From a virus: DNA of 28,691 nucleotides. Shown here piece by piece: positions 6,265 to 17,030 of this stretch. The translations under genes were made by a program, and so were the position numbers. Under the pieces are notes generated by a model. It was not told where the DNA came from. It did no database searches and saw only the letters and a program-made list of their open reading frames with translations. The DNA lies in the IMG/VR virus record IMGVR_UViG_3300025711_000026, positions 1 to 28,691 of that record, one strand, 5' to 3'. The first letter of the stretch is position 1; each line of letters starts with the position of its first letter.

Positions 6265-6356
6265 AAACATCGTCAGATAGCATTAGTAGGCATTCATTGA
6301 GTGCCCGCAATACTACTTTTGGTTACAATTACCTCAGTCAACATTGTGAGGTGGAA

Positions 6357-6908
6357 ATGGAAACTAATTACATTGCGTATGAAGCGCTTGCTGCGAGCAG
6401 AGAGGCAGCTGATTGGGCTTTTTGGTCAATGATTGGTACATGGTTCAGTGTTTCAATAACAGGTTTCGCGCTCATCTTCGCCTGGAAAGCACTATCGACT
6501 TGGAGGGATCAAGAAAAAAATAGAGTTAAAGCCGACTTTAAAAAAGCGATTCTTGCAATTCGCAACACTCTGCTATTTATGCCGCAAAAGTGGGACAGGG
6601 AACAATTGGCTCTGAGTATCAATTATGAAAGAATGAACACGGACGCTGCTGCTAACTTGACAGGGAAAATTGGAATCAATATTATTTTCCTCTCTCAAAA
6701 CTATAAAAACATGATTTTCTCATATAATAATGCAAATGATGCTTGGGTTATGTGCGAACATCTTTTCTTTGGTACGATTATTGAAGAAAAATGGCAAGCC
6801 CTCATGGTTTCATTTAATGAGTACATGCAGGGGGGACATCCTCATTCAGTTCTTTTTGAACCATTGAACGATTTATTCAACCAACCTTTCATATTCGAAG
6901 GTCGCTAA
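6357..6908 (+). CDS. Membrane-anchored protein of unknown function (moron)
   Basis: 183 residues from ATG 6357 with a GAGGTGG site; the in-frame TTG at 6297 would add 20 residues without one. One hydrophobic segment at about 24-46, preceded by A-S-R-E-A-A-D-W-A-F-W, anchors a soluble C-terminal part of about 135 residues rich in Asn, Phe and Met. The basic residues after the segment suggest that part is cytoplasmic. The region is AT-rich relative to the structural genes and sits behind its own operator-like dyads, so it is probably regulated independently. Single-anchor proteins of this kind in phages are often exclusion or defence proteins, but no motif proves it here. Confidence 0.7.
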   Translation: METNYIAYEALAASREAADWAFWSMIGTWFSVSITGFALIFAWKALSTWRDQEKNRVKADFKKAILAIRNTLLFMPQKWDREQLALSINYERMNTDAAANLTGKIGINIIFLSQNYKNMIFSYNNANDAWVMCEHLFFGTIIEEKWQALMVSFNEYMQGGHPHSVLFEPLNDLFNQPFIFEGR

Positions 6909-6988: not shown

Positions 6989-8446
6989 ATGCAAGTTACA
7001 ATTGATGGTGTCCCGTTTGTGCCTGCCTGTACCTCAGCGCCACGGATTGGCATTTCAATCACCACACACAATCGAGTCGACGTTCTAAAGCGGGCACTTG
7101 AACAGCACCAGAAACATTTGCCAGCTGGAGCGCTGATGGTTGTTATAGATGACGGTTCAAATCCTGCAGCCACTGTGAGTGACGGCGTGCAGCTTATTCA
7201 CCATGAAAAATCACTCGGCATTGTTGCCTCAAAAAATTCCAGCTTACGCGCGCTTATTGAGGCGGGGTGCGAGCATCTTTTCCTGTGGGACGATGACGCT
7301 TGGCCGATTGCTGATAACTGGCATGTACCATACACCGAATCGCCAGAGCCACACCTTGCTTACCAGTTTCTCGATCTAGCAGGTCGTAACAAACTGAATG
7401 ATATGGCGGTGCTGTGCCGGGATGATAAGCATATCGCTTACACCGGGCAGCGTGGCGTGATGCTTTACTACCACCGAAGCGCCATCGAAAAGGTTGGCGG
7501 ATTCGATCCTGTTTACGGTCGCGGCATGTACGAGCATCCAGATCTTGCCCTTCGTATCTACAACGCTGGATTATCAACCTGGGCGTTCGCTGATGTCGTT
7601 GGTTCTGAAAAGCTTATTCATTCGATGGATGAACATGAAGAGGGCACACGCTCAATCCCACGACCTGACCGTGAAGCGCTGGTGAAGCGTAACGTTGGCA
7701 TCTACAACGCGCGGCGTGATAGCGGATATACCGGTTTCGCCTCCTACAGTAGTAATCAGAATCTGGTTTTGACATCATTACTGACAAGCCAGCCAGACCC
7801 ACAGCGCACCGGGAAGATGAAACCCGACCCGCAGGTTCTCGAGTTATGGGCAGACTCAATATCCGGCGCGCAGTTGATGGTGATAGCCGACGAACTGAAA
7901 GAGGTTCCTTGCGGTGCAGGGCTGCACGAAGTTCCCGCGTTGAACATGAGCCCTTACTTTGCTCGATGGCTGCACGTCTACCAGTACCTTCGTGCGCATC
8001 CTGAGTATCACCTTGTCTGGTGTACTGATGGTACCGATGTGGAAATGCTGAGAGAACCCTGGGCAGAAATGCAGCCGGGTAAAATTTACGTTGGCTCTGA
8101 GCATAAAACATATTCCGACGAATGGATGAAGGGCAATCATCACGGCAAAGCCTATAGCGATTTCATCGACCAGAATCGAGATGAACCACTGCTTAATGCT
8201 GGTCTGTTAGGTGGCAGCCGTGAAGACGTCATGGAGTTTGCTCACCGGATCATCAGGCAGCACTACCTGATTGAAAGCCACCGCTTCTGGAAGATGGAGA
8301 CGGCACCCACCACGCAGGTGGACATGGGCGCATTCGGTATGGCCGCCAAGTCTTTCGGAGATAGGATAGTTACGGGGCCTAAGGTACACACCATTTTCAA
8401 AACAGATGGTGTCGGCAAAGAGAATGCCTGGTGGAAGCATAAATAG
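6989..8446 (+). CDS. Two-domain glycosyltransferase (GT2-type N-terminus, second GT-A-like C-terminus)
   Basis: 485 residues from ATG 6989 with a GGAG site. Residues about 18-215 are a GT-A family 2 domain: I-S-I-T-T-H-N-R at the start, V-I-D-D-G-S at 52-57, the metal-binding W-D-D-D at 100-103, and G-G-F-D-P with Y-E-H-P-D-L-A-L-R as the acceptor-side motif. Residues about 285-485 look like a second transferase-like domain: V-W-C-T-D-G-T-D-V near 343-351 and L-L-N-A-G-L-L-G-G at 401-409, reminiscent of the PLOD/GT8-type fold. No membrane segments, so it is cytosolic. The acceptor could be protein, DNA base or a glycan; nothing in the window decides. It lies in the late direction with a GT25-like gene downstream. 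Confidence 0.8.
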   Translation: MQVTIDGVPFVPACTSAPRIGISITTHNRVDVLKRALEQHQKHLPAGALMVVIDDGSNPAATVSDGVQLIHHEKSLGIVASKNSSLRALIEAGCEHLFLWDDDAWPIADNWHVPYTESPEPHLAYQFLDLAGRNKLNDMAVLCRDDKHIAYTGQRGVMLYYHRSAIEKVGGFDPVYGRGMYEHPDLALRIYNAGLSTWAFADVVGSEKLIHSMDEHEEGTRSIPRPDREALVKRNVGIYNARRDSGYTGFASYSSNQNLVLTSLLTSQPDPQRTGKMKPDPQVLELWADSISGAQLMVIADELKEVPCGAGLHEVPALNMSPYFARWLHVYQYLRAHPEYHLVWCTDGTDVEMLREPWAEMQPGKIYVGSEHKTYSDEWMKGNHHGKAYSDFIDQNRDEPLLNAGLLGGSREDVMEFAHRIIRQHYLIESHRFWKMETAPTTQVDMGAFGMAAKSFGDRIVTGPKVHTIFKTDGVGKENAWWKHK

Positions 8447-8471
8447 AAGCTGGAGACTTAGCCCCAGCTTC
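8446..8471. terminator. Convergent hairpin between the glycosyltransferase and iraP-like genes
   Basis: GAAGCTGG (8446-8453) and CCAGCTTC (8464-8471) form a perfect 8-pair stem with a 10-base loop. It sits exactly between two converging stops. T residues follow only from 8481 on the plus strand, so it is a less typical terminator in that direction. Confidence 0.6.
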
Positions 8472-8483
8472 GAGAGCTAGTTT

Positions 8484-8819
8484 TTAGTCAGTGGCTGTTT
8501 CACCCGGAACTTCCTTTAACGACTCGATATCGATTTCTGAATCGTTGGTTTCCAGTAGCTGCGTTAATAAAATAAGGTTATTGAATTCATTCAATAATAT
8601 TTCAGCGTCAGACTTTAGTGGTGTGTCTGCCGCATCAAGAGCTGCGTTAATCGCTTTTCTGACATTCTCAAGCATTTCATTCATTCCACCACTTTTCCCA
8701 ATAGTCAGTAATAACGCACCTATCAGGAGAGACTGAGCTTCTACTTTGGCCGCAAGTTGTTTAGCTTCAGCGTCCATTTTGGAAATTTTTGCAATCACAC
8801 CGAGTATCAAGTTTTTCAT
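8484..8819 (-). CDS. iraP: IraP-like anti-adaptor (predicted RssB inhibitor)
   Basis: 111 residues opening M-K-N-L-I, then a helical heptad-like stretch with D-A-E-A-K-Q-L-A-A-K-V-E-A and a hydrophobic L-L-I-G-A-L-L-L-T-I segment. This lines up by eye with E. coli IraP (86 residues), which starts M-K-N-L-I and has K-E-L-C-A-Q-V-E-A-L at the same place. IraP binds RssB and stops delivery of sigma-S to ClpXP. The phage protein carries an extra acidic C-terminal tail of about 25 residues. ATG 8819 follows AGGGGGC. It opposes the late genes, as expected for expression in the lysogen. Similarity is from memory; the helical character alone could be coincidental, but the N-terminal match is good. 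Confidence 0.7.
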   Translation of the reverse strand: MKNLILGVIAKISKMDAEAKQLAAKVEAQSLLIGALLLTIGKSGGMNEMLENVRKAINAALDAADTPLKSDAEILLNEFNNLILLTQLLETNDSEIDIESLKEVPGETATD

Positions 8820-8880
8820 AATGCCCCCTGTTTTTTTTGCGAGATTACCTCCTTAATAAAATTGGGGCGAGGTTTATTTG

Positions 8881-9471
8881 ATGGATAAAGATATTGCCTT
8901 TGTTGTGATTGGTCATTACCTACGAATAAAACAGGCTCAGCATCTGGCTGACCAGCTTCAAGCTCATCTATTCATTGATGAAACAGGGCAGGGCGCAAAC
9001 TGGAATCATCGCCGCGCTATCCAATGGGCTGCAGAGCAAACCTGCCGGGTAGTGGTGTTGGAAGACGACGCGGTGCTGGTGCACGGTTTCATCGAGAAAG
9101 TTGCTGAGTGGCTGGCCCGTTTCCCTGATGACATGCTGAGCTTTTATCTCGGTACCGGACGCCCGCCTCAGTATCAGATGCAGATAGCCGAACGGCTGAT
9201 TGTCGCTGATAAGACTCGGGCAGACTTCATCACGTTGCCGCGCCTGATTCATGGAGTGTGCTACAGCGTACCGCCTCAACGCATCAGCCGTGTGCTATCC
9301 CAATGGGACAGCAGCAAGCCTGCGGATTATGCCGTGGGTGATGCCTTTGGCGGCGCAGTGGTATATCCGTATTACTCACTCGTAGAACATGCCGACGGAG
9401 AGCCTGTGGAGCGGCGAATAGATGGTATGCCGCGTACCGAGCGCCGCAAAGCGTGGAGGCTAGCAGGATGA
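8881..9471 (+). CDS. GT25-like glycosyltransferase
   Basis: 196 residues from ATG 8881 after GGGGCGAGG. The centre has V-V-V-L-E-D-D-A-V-L-V at about 57-67, the acidic metal motif of family 25 (LPS and collagen-type galactosyltransferases), preceded by W-N-H-R-R-A-I-Q-W-A. Family 25 domains are somewhat longer, so this is a compact version. No membrane segment is present. It overlaps the HNH gene as ATGA and is therefore made together with a packaging component, in the same direction as the larger glycosyltransferase, from which it is split by the reversed iraP-like gene. Sugar and acceptor are unknown. Confidence 0.7.
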   Translation: MDKDIAFVVIGHYLRIKQAQHLADQLQAHLFIDETGQGANWNHRRAIQWAAEQTCRVVVLEDDAVLVHGFIEKVAEWLARFPDDMLSFYLGTGRPPQYQMQIAERLIVADKTRADFITLPRLIHGVCYSVPPQRISRVLSQWDSSKPADYAVGDAFGGAVVYPYYSLVEHADGEPVERRIDGMPRTERRKAWRLAG

Positions 9472-9806
9472 GCAAAGAACCGCGTATCTATGGTAGCCGA
9501 TGGGATAAGGCCAGGCGTTCATTCTTGCGTAGCCACCCTCTATGCAGGATGTGTGAAGAGCAGGGCAGAACAATAGCCGCTACGGTAGTTGACCACATCG
9601 AGCCGCACAAGCTTAAGGACGCTATCAAGTCCGGTAATAAGACGTCGATAGCCAAAGCGCAGCTGTTGTTCTGGGACAAGTCGAACTGGCAGCCCCTGTG
9701 TAAGCAGCACCACGACTCAACAAAGCAGAGGATGGAGAAGAGCGGCACGATCATCGGCTGTGACGTCAATGGCTACCCGCTTGACCCGAACTCTCACTGG
9801 AAGTAA
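9468..9806 (+). CDS. HNH endonuclease of the packaging module
   Basis: 112 residues from ATG 9468, which overlaps the previous stop; the in-frame start at 9453 is less well placed. Zinc knuckles C26-x-x-C29 and C78-x-x-H81 surround the HNH core D42-H43, N73 and H82. In HK97-type cos phages a small HNH protein next to terminase works with the large subunit to cut at cos. The position just before the cos candidate and terS fits this exactly. Confidence 0.9.
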   Translation: MSKEPRIYGSRWDKARRSFLRSHPLCRMCEEQGRTIAATVVDHIEPHKLKDAIKSGNKTSIAKAQLLFWDKSNWQPLCKQHHDSTKQRMEKSGTIIGCDVNGYPLDPNSHWK

Positions 9807-9837: not shown

Positions 9838-9880
9838 AGGGGCTGGGGGGAGGGTAAAACTCTACCCCTCTTGGCCCAAA
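9838..9880 (+). other. Candidate cos site
   Basis: The 138-base gap between the HNH gene and terS has a very G-rich tract at 9838-9854 and the inverted repeat GGGTA (9852-9856) with TACCC (9863-9867), then a C-rich stretch and the TTGGCCCAAA palindrome around 9871-9880. In HK97-type phages cos lies here, next to the HNH and terminase genes. The exact nick positions cannot be read from sequence alone. The rest of the gap holds only the terS ribosome site. Confidence 0.5.
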
Positions 9881-9944
9881 TGACCGCGCCTGTCCCTCAA
9901 ATTAAACGCTAACCCGATTTTTTCAGTTTTATCAGGTGCTAAAA

Positions 9945-10430
9945 ATGGCAGACAAACGAACCCGCTCCGACAGTTCGGCGGCGGCGATTCAGGCCATGAA
10001 AAATGCAATAGAGGATACGATCAAACCTCCGGTGCATGCGGGTCTGGAGAAAAAAGCCGAACCTTTCTGGCATGACAATATCAGATCGAAAGCGCTGGAC
10101 AGCTGGACGCCAGCCGATCTGCTGGCCGCTGCCGAACTGGCAAATAATCAGCTCTATATCACCGTTTTACGCAAAGACTTGCGCAAAGAGGAACGCATCC
10201 GGGGTGAAGAGCGTAACGAACAGCTCATCAAAGATCTGCGTAAGCAGATTGTTGAATTGCAGCGAACTATTCTGGCGCAGCGCCGTGATTTGCAGATCCA
10301 CTCCCATGCAACCAATGGCGAAAGTCGCGACCAGAAGAATCGCAACGAAAACGACCGAAATGCTCGTGGGAAGGTTAATAACAATTCGGGAGAGGATGAC
10401 AACCTGATCGCCTTCCCTAAACACGGGTAA
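9945..10430 (+). CDS. terS: Terminase small subunit (HK97 gp1-like)
   Basis: 161 residues from ATG 9945, with AGGTG six bases upstream; the GTG at 9936 would add only three residues. Residues 30-75 contain W-H-D-N-I-R-S-K-A and W-T-P-A-D-L-L-A-A-A, the DNA-recognition helical part, followed by a long charged coiled coil (about 80-125) that should mediate ring assembly, and a hydrophilic tail. It recognises cos and hands DNA to the large subunit, which follows 7 bases later. Confidence 0.8.
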   Translation: MADKRTRSDSSAAAIQAMKNAIEDTIKPPVHAGLEKKAEPFWHDNIRSKALDSWTPADLLAAAELANNQLYITVLRKDLRKEERIRGEERNEQLIKDLRKQIVELQRTILAQRRDLQIHSHATNGESRDQKNRNENDRNARGKVNNNSGEDDNLIAFPKHG

Positions 10431-13928: not shown

Positions 13929-15089
13929 ATGTCCGAATTAGCACAAATTCAGAAGGCGATCGAAGATTCTCAGAAAAACATGCAGCAGCTGTTTGATGCT
14001 CAGAAAACTGAGATTGAAACCACCGGTAAGGTATCGAAGCAACTGCAGGACGATCTGGCGAAAGTTCAGGAAGAACTGAAGGCAGCCGGTACCCGTCTGT
14101 TCGATATGGAGCAAAAGTTTGCTTCCGGTGCAGAAAACCCAGGCGAGAAGAAATCTTTCTCCGAGCGAGCCGCTGAAGGCCTGACTAAATCCTGGAACGG
14201 CAGCAAAGGCCACTTTGACGCACAGACCTTCAACAAATCGCTGGGCAGTGATCAGGCTTCTGCCGGAAGCTTGATCCAGCCGATGCAGGTGCCGGGTATC
14301 ATCATGCCGGGTCTGCGTCGCCTGACTATCCGTGATTTGCTTGCCCAGGGTCGTATTTCCAGTAATTCACTTGAATATGTCCGTGAAGAGCTGTTTACCA
14401 ACAATGCTGCCAGCGTGGAAGAGAAGGCTCTCAAGCCTGAATCTGAACTCACTTTCAGCAAACAAACTGCAAACGTGAAAACCGTCGCTCACTGGATCCA
14501 GGCATCGCGTCAGGTCATGGACGATGCGCCGATGCTTCAGTCCTACGTCAATAACCGCCTGATGTACGGTCTGGCGCTGGAGGAAGAGCGCCAGTTGCTC
14601 AACGGTGACGGCAGTGGCGACGATCTGGAAGGCATCAACCATGTGGCCACCGCCTACGATGCTGGTCTGAATGTCTCCGGCGACACCCGCGCAGATATTA
14701 TTGCCCACGCGATCTTCCAGGTGACTGAATCCGAGTTCAGCGCCTCGGGCATTGTGCTGAATCCGCGTGACTGGCACTCCATTGCGCTACTAAAAGATAA
14801 CGAAGGGCGCTATATCTTCGGCGGCCCGCAGGCGTTTACCCAAAACATCATGTGGGGCCTGCCGGTGGTTCCAACTCGCGCCCAGAGCCAGGGCACCTTC
14901 ACCGTCGGCGGCTTTGATATGGCCTCTCAGGTCTGGGATCGCATGGATGCCACCATTGAGGTTAGCCGCGAAGACCGGGATAACTTCGTTAAAAACATGC
15001 TCACCATTCTGTGCGAAGAACGTCTGGCGCTGGCGCACTACCGTCCGAAGGCGCTCATCAAAGGTACTTTCACCGAACAAACCAGCTGA
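13929..15089 (+). CDS. Major capsid protein (HK97 gp5-like, chainmail type)
   Basis: 386 residues, against 385 in HK97 gp5, and by eye very similar throughout. The N-terminal delta domain (1-103) is coiled-coil rich and ends in F-N-K-S-L-G-S-D, so cleavage is expected after Lys103 as in HK97. Lys169 (E-K-A-L-K-P) and Asn356 (F-V-K-N) are at the HK97 cross-link positions, and Glu363 (L-C-E-E), which promotes the reaction, is also kept. The shell should therefore form covalent chainmail rings. Ribosome site AGGAAAAT. Confidence 0.97.
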   Translation: MSELAQIQKAIEDSQKNMQQLFDAQKTEIETTGKVSKQLQDDLAKVQEELKAAGTRLFDMEQKFASGAENPGEKKSFSERAAEGLTKSWNGSKGHFDAQTFNKSLGSDQASAGSLIQPMQVPGIIMPGLRRLTIRDLLAQGRISSNSLEYVREELFTNNAASVEEKALKPESELTFSKQTANVKTVAHWIQASRQVMDDAPMLQSYVNNRLMYGLALEEERQLLNGDGSGDDLEGINHVATAYDAGLNVSGDTRADIIAHAIFQVTESEFSASGIVLNPRDWHSIALLKDNEGRYIFGGPQAFTQNIMWGLPVVPTRAQSQGTFTVGGFDMASQVWDRMDATIEVSREDRDNFVKNMLTILCEERLALAHYRPKALIKGTFTEQTS

Positions 15090-16574: not shown

Positions 16575-17030
16575 ATGGCTGATAAAAGCTCACCGGAATA
16601 CGCAATGCTGCCCGCCGGGACAATCGTCAAATGGGGTGCAACAGGTGAAGACGTGGCTGATTTCCAGTCACTGGTGAACTGTAAAGCCCTCGGCGCAACC
16701 GGCGCAACGGGTTCGTTCGTCGACTGCACCACGCTTATCGACACTCAGAAACAGTTCCTTTCTGATATGCCCGAGGGACCAGAAAAATCCCTTGGCTTTG
16801 TCGATGATCCGTCAAATACCAGCTTTATGGCATTTCTGAATGCCGCTCAGGCGCGCCAGACGGTCCAGTTTTATATCAAATTACCTAACGGGCGCACGGC
16901 GACAATGATCATGGCGCTGTCGGGCTGGCAGCTGAATGAAATCACGGCACCGGCGGGTGAGGTTATCCAGATCACCGTCAACGGAAAGCAGAACAATATC
17001 GACTGGGGCTATGACGAACCCGGCAGCTGA
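16575..17030 (+). CDS. Major tail tube protein
   Basis: 151 residues with an upstream GAGG. Size, position and beta-rich sequence (T-I-V-K-W-G-A-T, F-Y-I-K-L-P-N-G-R-T, V-I-Q-I-T-V-N-G-K) fit the siphophage tail tube family (lambda gpV fold, HK97 gp12-like). Stacked hexamers form the DNA conduit. It is followed by a terminator, which fits a need for much more tube than chaperone. Confidence 0.8.
   Translation: MADKSSPEYAMLPAGTIVKWGATGEDVADFQSLVNCKALGATGATGSFVDCTTLIDTQKQFLSDMPEGPEKSLGFVDDPSNTSFMAFLNAAQARQTVQFYIKLPNGRTATMIMALSGWQLNEITAPAGEVIQITVNGKQNNIDWGYDEPGS

Follow-up and report, generated by a model that had tools for sequence, protein, structure and literature searches.

What do phage genes annotated as "glycosyltransferase" and lying beside the cos region modify? 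The question is raised by a 28.7-kb virus record (IMG/VR record IMGVR_UViG_3300025711_000026; "the window" denotes this whole stretch of 28,691 nucleotides), a distant relative of the HK97-like Hendrixvirinae with ~78% DNA identity over about half of the 24.7 kb compared (HK140, HK542, mEp390, and Fostie). Its two glycosyltransferase (GT) genes, encoding a two-domain enzyme (GT1) and a GT25-like enzyme (GT25), are located upstream of the genes for the major capsid protein (MCP) and the major tail (tube) protein (MTP). Until now, reports of sugar-coated virions have come mostly from mycobacteriophages. Comparison of the window with its relatives indicates that GT1 and GT25 probably constitute a late-expressed virion glycosylation module, which would O-glycosylate the C-terminal serine of both MCP and MTP. 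The features at the center of this proposal are the following:

6989..8446, + strand: GT1, two fused GT-A domains, 485 amino acids (aa), ATG start; phrog_1579; GT2-like at ~20-245, GT6-like at ~254-485
8878..9471, + strand: GT25-like glycosyltransferase; phrog_854; EDD motif at residues 62-64; likely start ATG 8881
13929..15089, + strand: MCP, ends ...FTEQTS, putative acceptor C-terminal Ser386
16575..17030, + strand: MTP, ends ...YDEPGS, putative acceptor C-terminal Ser151

A C-terminal serine that tracks the glycosyltransferase genes

Of the 32 proteins listed for the window, MCP (...EQTS) and MTP (...EPGS) are the only two with a [G/T]S end. Loci for comparison were gathered by MCP homology as well as GT homology and were scored as GT-positive when a GT25 or GT1 gene lies upstream of the MCP gene, or as GT-negative when none is present and at least 7 kb upstream are covered. 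Within the window-type and L113-type MCP lineages (~37% identical; L numbers are our locus labels), a terminal serine (GS, TS, or NS) is found at 162/162 GT-positive loci, corresponding to 125/125 distinct proteins, compared with 4/25 GT-negative loci (4/20 distinct proteins), where the ends are mostly GG, GA, or GQ. A third lineage, in which protease and MCP are fused, displays a terminal serine in 59/59 GT-positive and 2/5 GT-negative distinct proteins. Three MTP families combined carry a [G/T]S end in 90 of 95 distinct GT-positive proteins versus 6 of 18 GT-negative ones; this contrast stems from one family (62/65 versus 2/13), the other two having only 2 and 3 GT-negative members.

An unbiased screen clustered all open reading frames (ORFs) with a length of 120 aa or more at GT-positive loci; 54 clusters held 15 or more distinct members, and in exactly five of these more than 50% of the ends are [G/T]S. 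The five are two MCP clusters (HK97-type and fusion) and three MTP families (92-100%), and PHROG and Pfam matches back their identities as MCP and MTP. The sixth-ranked cluster reaches 10%.

Homologues of the window enzymes extend to more than 500 mycobacteriophage records. GT1 is 45% identical over its full length to gp105 of the F1 mycobacteriophage Ogopogo, GT25 shares 33.5% identity with Che8 gp110 over 194 of 197 aa, and phrog_854 takes in the window GT25 together with Mycobacterium and Gordonia homologues. According to PMC12363180, which cites Freeman 2023, Che8 gp110 and Corndog gp38 are essential for capsid glycosylation; PMC12619734, likewise citing Freeman 2023, places glycans on the capsid and tail tube C-termini, and glycosylation of mycobacteriophage virions by phage GTs is also cited in PMC11256854. 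MCP and MTP are Ser-terminal in Che8 (KTGS/SDGS), Ogopogo (DES/DGS), Sparky (GGGS/GGGS), and the cluster-O phage Schuy (VGS/GDS), which stands in for Corndog in our comparisons, as well as in the Gordonia phages Phendrix (NSGS/VTGS), GMA2 (ATGS/VTGS), and Sixama (AVGS/SGS). Bxb1, Giles, and TM4 have no phrog_854 match, and the tag is absent from both of their proteins. In lambda, MCP lacks the tag and the tail protein gpV ends in TAS; the MTPs of HK97 (...TLTIS) and HK022 have no [G/T]S end. The E. coli K-12 phage mEp390 has GT1, GT25, and the tag on both proteins. Che8 displays the order gp108-gp110, gp111, HNH gp112, genome end, and terS, which matches the place of the GT genes in the window, and the GT genes of Phendrix, Sixama, and Schuy are located among head and tail genes. 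As a separate observation, one or two genes beside MCP and MTP also end in -GS in Phendrix (L180), GMA2 (L424), and Sixama (L425), a head-tail adaptor among them in two phages, which suggests that further virion proteins may be glycosylated there.

Enzyme families, synteny, kinship with the Che8 gp110 family, and the tracking of the tag with the GT genes are results of the comparison; reaction chemistry, enzyme order, sugar identity, and the serine itself as linkage site belong to the mechanism that we infer. In it, the GT25-like enzyme would put the first sugar on the C-terminal serine hydroxyl of MCP and MTP. The signal it reads would be a short, fold-independent C-terminal tag made of a small residue (G/T/N) and Ser-COOH. 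GT1, with its GT2-like and GT6-like domains, would next lengthen the chain by one or two sugars, and hundreds of exposed C-termini would in this way give head and tail a glycan coat. Our reasons for proposing that GT25 primes the chain are its role as constant partner, its occurrence without GT1 in HK633 and L359, and its Che8 homologue, which is reported as essential.

A broader proposal appears somewhat favored, with less confidence than the module itself: that GT25-like phage enzymes generally recognize a small residue followed by Ser-COOH as their acceptor signal, which unrelated head and tail proteins have gained in phages infecting Enterobacteriaceae, Mycobacterium, and Gordonia; that virion glycosylation is common in temperate phages of Gram-negative hosts and predictable from sequence; and that the glycan tag replaces an outward immunoglobulin (Ig)-like domain in the tail family with 234- and 147-156-aa forms. 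In this family, most GT-free phages carry a long form of 234-255 aa that is extended at the C-terminus, and most GT-positive phages a short 147/156-aa form, whose -GS end falls about where the extension of the long form would begin. The extension of the HK97 MTP (L166, 6733-7437) is an Ig-like domain (Pfam Ig_3, 154-215). As a side reading, Ig-like extension and -GS tag might thus be two alternative tail decorations.

Three glycosyltransferase domains in two proteins

The earlier note had recognized three GT-like domains, two of them in one chain, and this is borne out by PHROG and Pfam matches and structure models. GT1 gives a full-length match to phrog_1579 ("glycosyltransferase", E 2e-224). 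Pfam Glycos_transf_2 (PF00535) on its N-terminal part stays below the cut-off for the window protein itself (E 0.0044) and was found in 5/5 aligned family members (best E 3e-12, in a homologue). An AlphaFold2 model of GT1 (mean predicted local distance difference test score, pLDDT, 71.7) places two GT-A domains in one chain, with residues 257-462 modeled best and the N-terminal GT2-like domain less well. Foldseek ranked tandem two-GT enzymes at the top of its PDB matches, namely PmHS2, K4CP, CHSY3-CHPF, Mimivirus R699, and COLGALT1 (E 1e-10 to 5e-7; COLGALT1 within the top 20). The second domain aligns with the GT6 enzymes ABO and alpha-1,3-GalT (VIA-align, Z 15-16, root-mean-square deviation ~3.2, ~205 residues). 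The 50 structural matches listed for this domain are GT6-type enzymes, and families beyond that listing may resemble it as well. On the strength of the model, GT1 is a tandem GT2-like and GT6-like enzyme.

The GT25 ORF (8878-9471) matches phrog_854 ("glucosyltransferase") with an E value of 2e-70. Pfam GT25 (PF01755) matches 3/7 family members (best 1.2e-7), the window protein itself giving no match; the acidic EDD-type motif is invariant in the family. The GT25 model is weak (pLDDT 65.6), and its best structural alignments are mostly with GT-A glycosyltransferases at Z values of at most 7.3. Foldseek with this weak model returned no significant match, and sequence searches of the PDB identified no relative. 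GT25 is not assigned to a structural subclass: LH3 and Mimivirus R655 were considered and show up only at Z ~7 with the weak model.

Fold comparison upheld a glycosyltransferase fold for the C-terminal domain of GT1, apparently of GT6-like rather than PLOD/GT8 type judging from the matches listed, and pointed mostly to GT-A for the weakly modeled GT25. The analogy with hydroxylysine glycosylation drawn in the earlier note is not supported, as the second domain of GT1 is nearest to GT6 among the listed matches and the putative acceptor is serine rather than hydroxylysine.

Other targets and the weight of the association

The earlier note had left virion proteins and modified DNA side by side as candidate acceptors. 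Relatives point to the MCP and MTP C-terminal serine and away from DNA. Glycosylation of a hypermodified base, as by the T4 alpha/beta-GTs or TET-linked GTs, has precedent in phage GTs that act on DNA, and one member of the GT1 alignment weakly matches Pfam TAGT (TET-associated GT, E 0.079). A gene of thymidylate synthase/hydroxymethylase type (PF00303) was nevertheless found in 0/39 GT-bearing relatives, in a search whose control worked; a Tet_JBP search also gave 0/39, but its control yielded nothing either, so that this result is uninformative. Moreover, DNA as target leaves the tag on MCP and MTP unexplained, and Che8 gp110, the homologue of GT25, is a reported requirement for capsid glycosylation (PMC12363180). 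We consider this explanation highly improbable.

Scarcely better placed is a role at the host surface, where the enzymes would modify lipopolysaccharide (LPS) or O-antigen and so bring about seroconversion of the lysogen or superinfection exclusion. Clusters of gtr genes are common in temperate phages, and Pfam GT25 is named after LPS biosynthesis enzymes. Yet no membrane segment is obvious in GT1 or GT25, where hydropathy over 19 residues peaks at 1.0 and 1.2; PHROG and Pfam matches of the neighboring ORFs scanned include neither a GtrA flippase nor a GtrB bactoprenol GT; the genes belong to the late region; and this reading, too, offers no account of the tag on virion proteins.

The strongest competitor, although still unlikely, holds that the -GS tag serves assembly or stability of these head and tail modules and accompanies the GT genes by linkage, the GTs having a different target among virion or host proteins. 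It draws on some of the observations that weigh against C-terminal glycosylation, namely the -GS ends of MCP in HK97, HK022, and four other GT-free loci and the small number of independent transitions. HK97 and HK022 have no GTs, yet their MCP ends in ...SSGS, and the -GS end of MCP is kept at four other GT-free loci (L010, L083, L355, and L357), possibly through recent loss or exchange of the GT module; at L010, the place of the GT genes is filled by other ORFs of 80 and 309 aa. Two GT-free loci of the protease-MCP fusion lineage end in serine as well, a few GT-positive phages have untagged MTPs, and the Kp24 tube protein ends in GVAI although the MCP ends in TPAS. Independent transitions are few: the enterobacterial MCP tree gives 3 concordant, 0 discordant, and 4 pairs without difference, and MTP gives ~2.5, 0, and 2.5, respectively. 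Head and tail genes travel as modules, so linkage could explain part of the association. Raw Fisher p-values were not taken as proof, because modules shared by descent and recombination make them overstate independence. Against linkage stand the common tag on three MCP lineages and three MTP families of different sequence in enterobacterial phages, its recurrence in phages with unrelated MCP and MTP and other gene orders, and its absence from any other family at GT loci. The weight of the evidence for C-terminal glycosylation lies in this repetition of the tag on sequence-unrelated acceptors in unrelated phages.

Gene order, cargo, and known systems

The window runs from lysis genes through a phrog_6169 protein, GT1, an IraP-like ORF on the opposite strand, GT25, and an HNH gene to the cos region, followed by terS, terL, portal, protease, MCP, connectors, MTP, and tape measure. 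The features around the GT genes are:

6297..6908, + strand: phrog_6169 protein (function unassigned in the family), 203 aa, N-terminal hydrophobic stretch, between spanin genes and GT1
8484..8819, - strand: IraP-family anti-adaptor ORF, PF10796, between GT1 and GT25
9468..9806, + strand: HNH endonuclease, likely start ATG 9468
9870..9935, no strand: cos region, alignment with the HK97 genome-end junction at ~9891, between HNH and terS
9936..10430, + strand: terminase small subunit (terS), phrog_5601

The earlier description of GT genes in the late direction just before HNH, cos, and terS is confirmed, including the coupling of GT25 to HNH, whose start overlaps the GT25 stop in an ATGA at 9468-9471. 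The two GT genes are not directly adjacent in the window, where the IraP-like ORF separates them. This ORF matches PF10796 with 83.4 bits (gathering cut-off 23.2, E 1.9e-23) and is probably cargo, not part of the glycosylation system. The IraP family is an RpoS-stabilizing anti-adaptor, and the window phage may, judging from this match, raise host RpoS. Identical or 93% copies occupy the same place in L229, L230, L015/L190/L089, and L104; among phages in the collection, only Erwinia phage vB_EhrS_49 gives a match (44%). GT1 and GT25 overlap or lie almost end to end at 173 loci, and 300-2000 nt of cargo separate them at 147 (e.g., L013, L243, L290, L350, and L104), comprising HNH_3 homing endonucleases and many small uncharacterized proteins on either strand. 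The gap is a moron slot and a possible source of counter-defense or host-control genes.

If the proposed module is real, virion glycosylation reaches well-known laboratory coliphages (mEp390, HK542, and relatives), and a simple sequence signature would predict which phage particles carry sugar and on which proteins. Virion glycans bear on adsorption, stability, and antibody recognition of phages in therapy, and the role of "glycosyltransferase" genes beside cos becomes a directly checkable question. Virion glycosylation is already known in mycobacteriophages; its extension to enterobacterial HK97-like phages has good evidence in the gene and protein comparisons. The literature searched contained no report of glycosylation in HK97-like coliphages.

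The mycobacteriophage system of Che8 gp110 and Corndog gp38 resembles the window in its homologous GT25-like enzyme, in the position of the Che8 genes (GT, HNH, genome end, terS), and in the [G/T]S tag on both MCP and MTP, so that the putative acceptors are the same two proteins. The window differs in belonging to an enterobacterial HK97-like phage and in its partner enzyme, a GT2 plus GT6-like protein rather than the Che8 gp108/gp109 set; glycosylation is reported for the mycobacteriophages and predicted from genes for the window. Close pairs are carried by Hendrixvirinae and by similar phages infecting Escherichia, Cronobacter, Salmonella, and Aeromonas: the phrog_1579 and phrog_854 proteins of HK542, mEp390, ECP1, ENT39118, and Fraca are 62-75% identical to GT1 and GT25 and occupy the same genomic place. 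The records examined read "glycosyltransferase" or hypothetical protein and name no acceptor, and the window pair differs from them in being split by the IraP-like gene. Kp24-like Klebsiella jumbo phages share an adjacent, homologous GT1-GT25 pair (56%/47% identity) and an MCP ending in ...TPAS, the C-terminal loop of the Kp24 MCP lining the hexamer pore (PMC9700779); unlike the window phage, they are large and contractile-tailed, and their tube protein lacks the tag. With tandem GT-A enzymes (PmHS2, K4CP, and COLGALT1) and GT6 transferases (ABO and alpha-1,3-GalT), GT1 has fold and two-domain layout in common, whereas identity in the structural matches is only ~8-16% and the acceptors differ, which limits the likeness to the fold.
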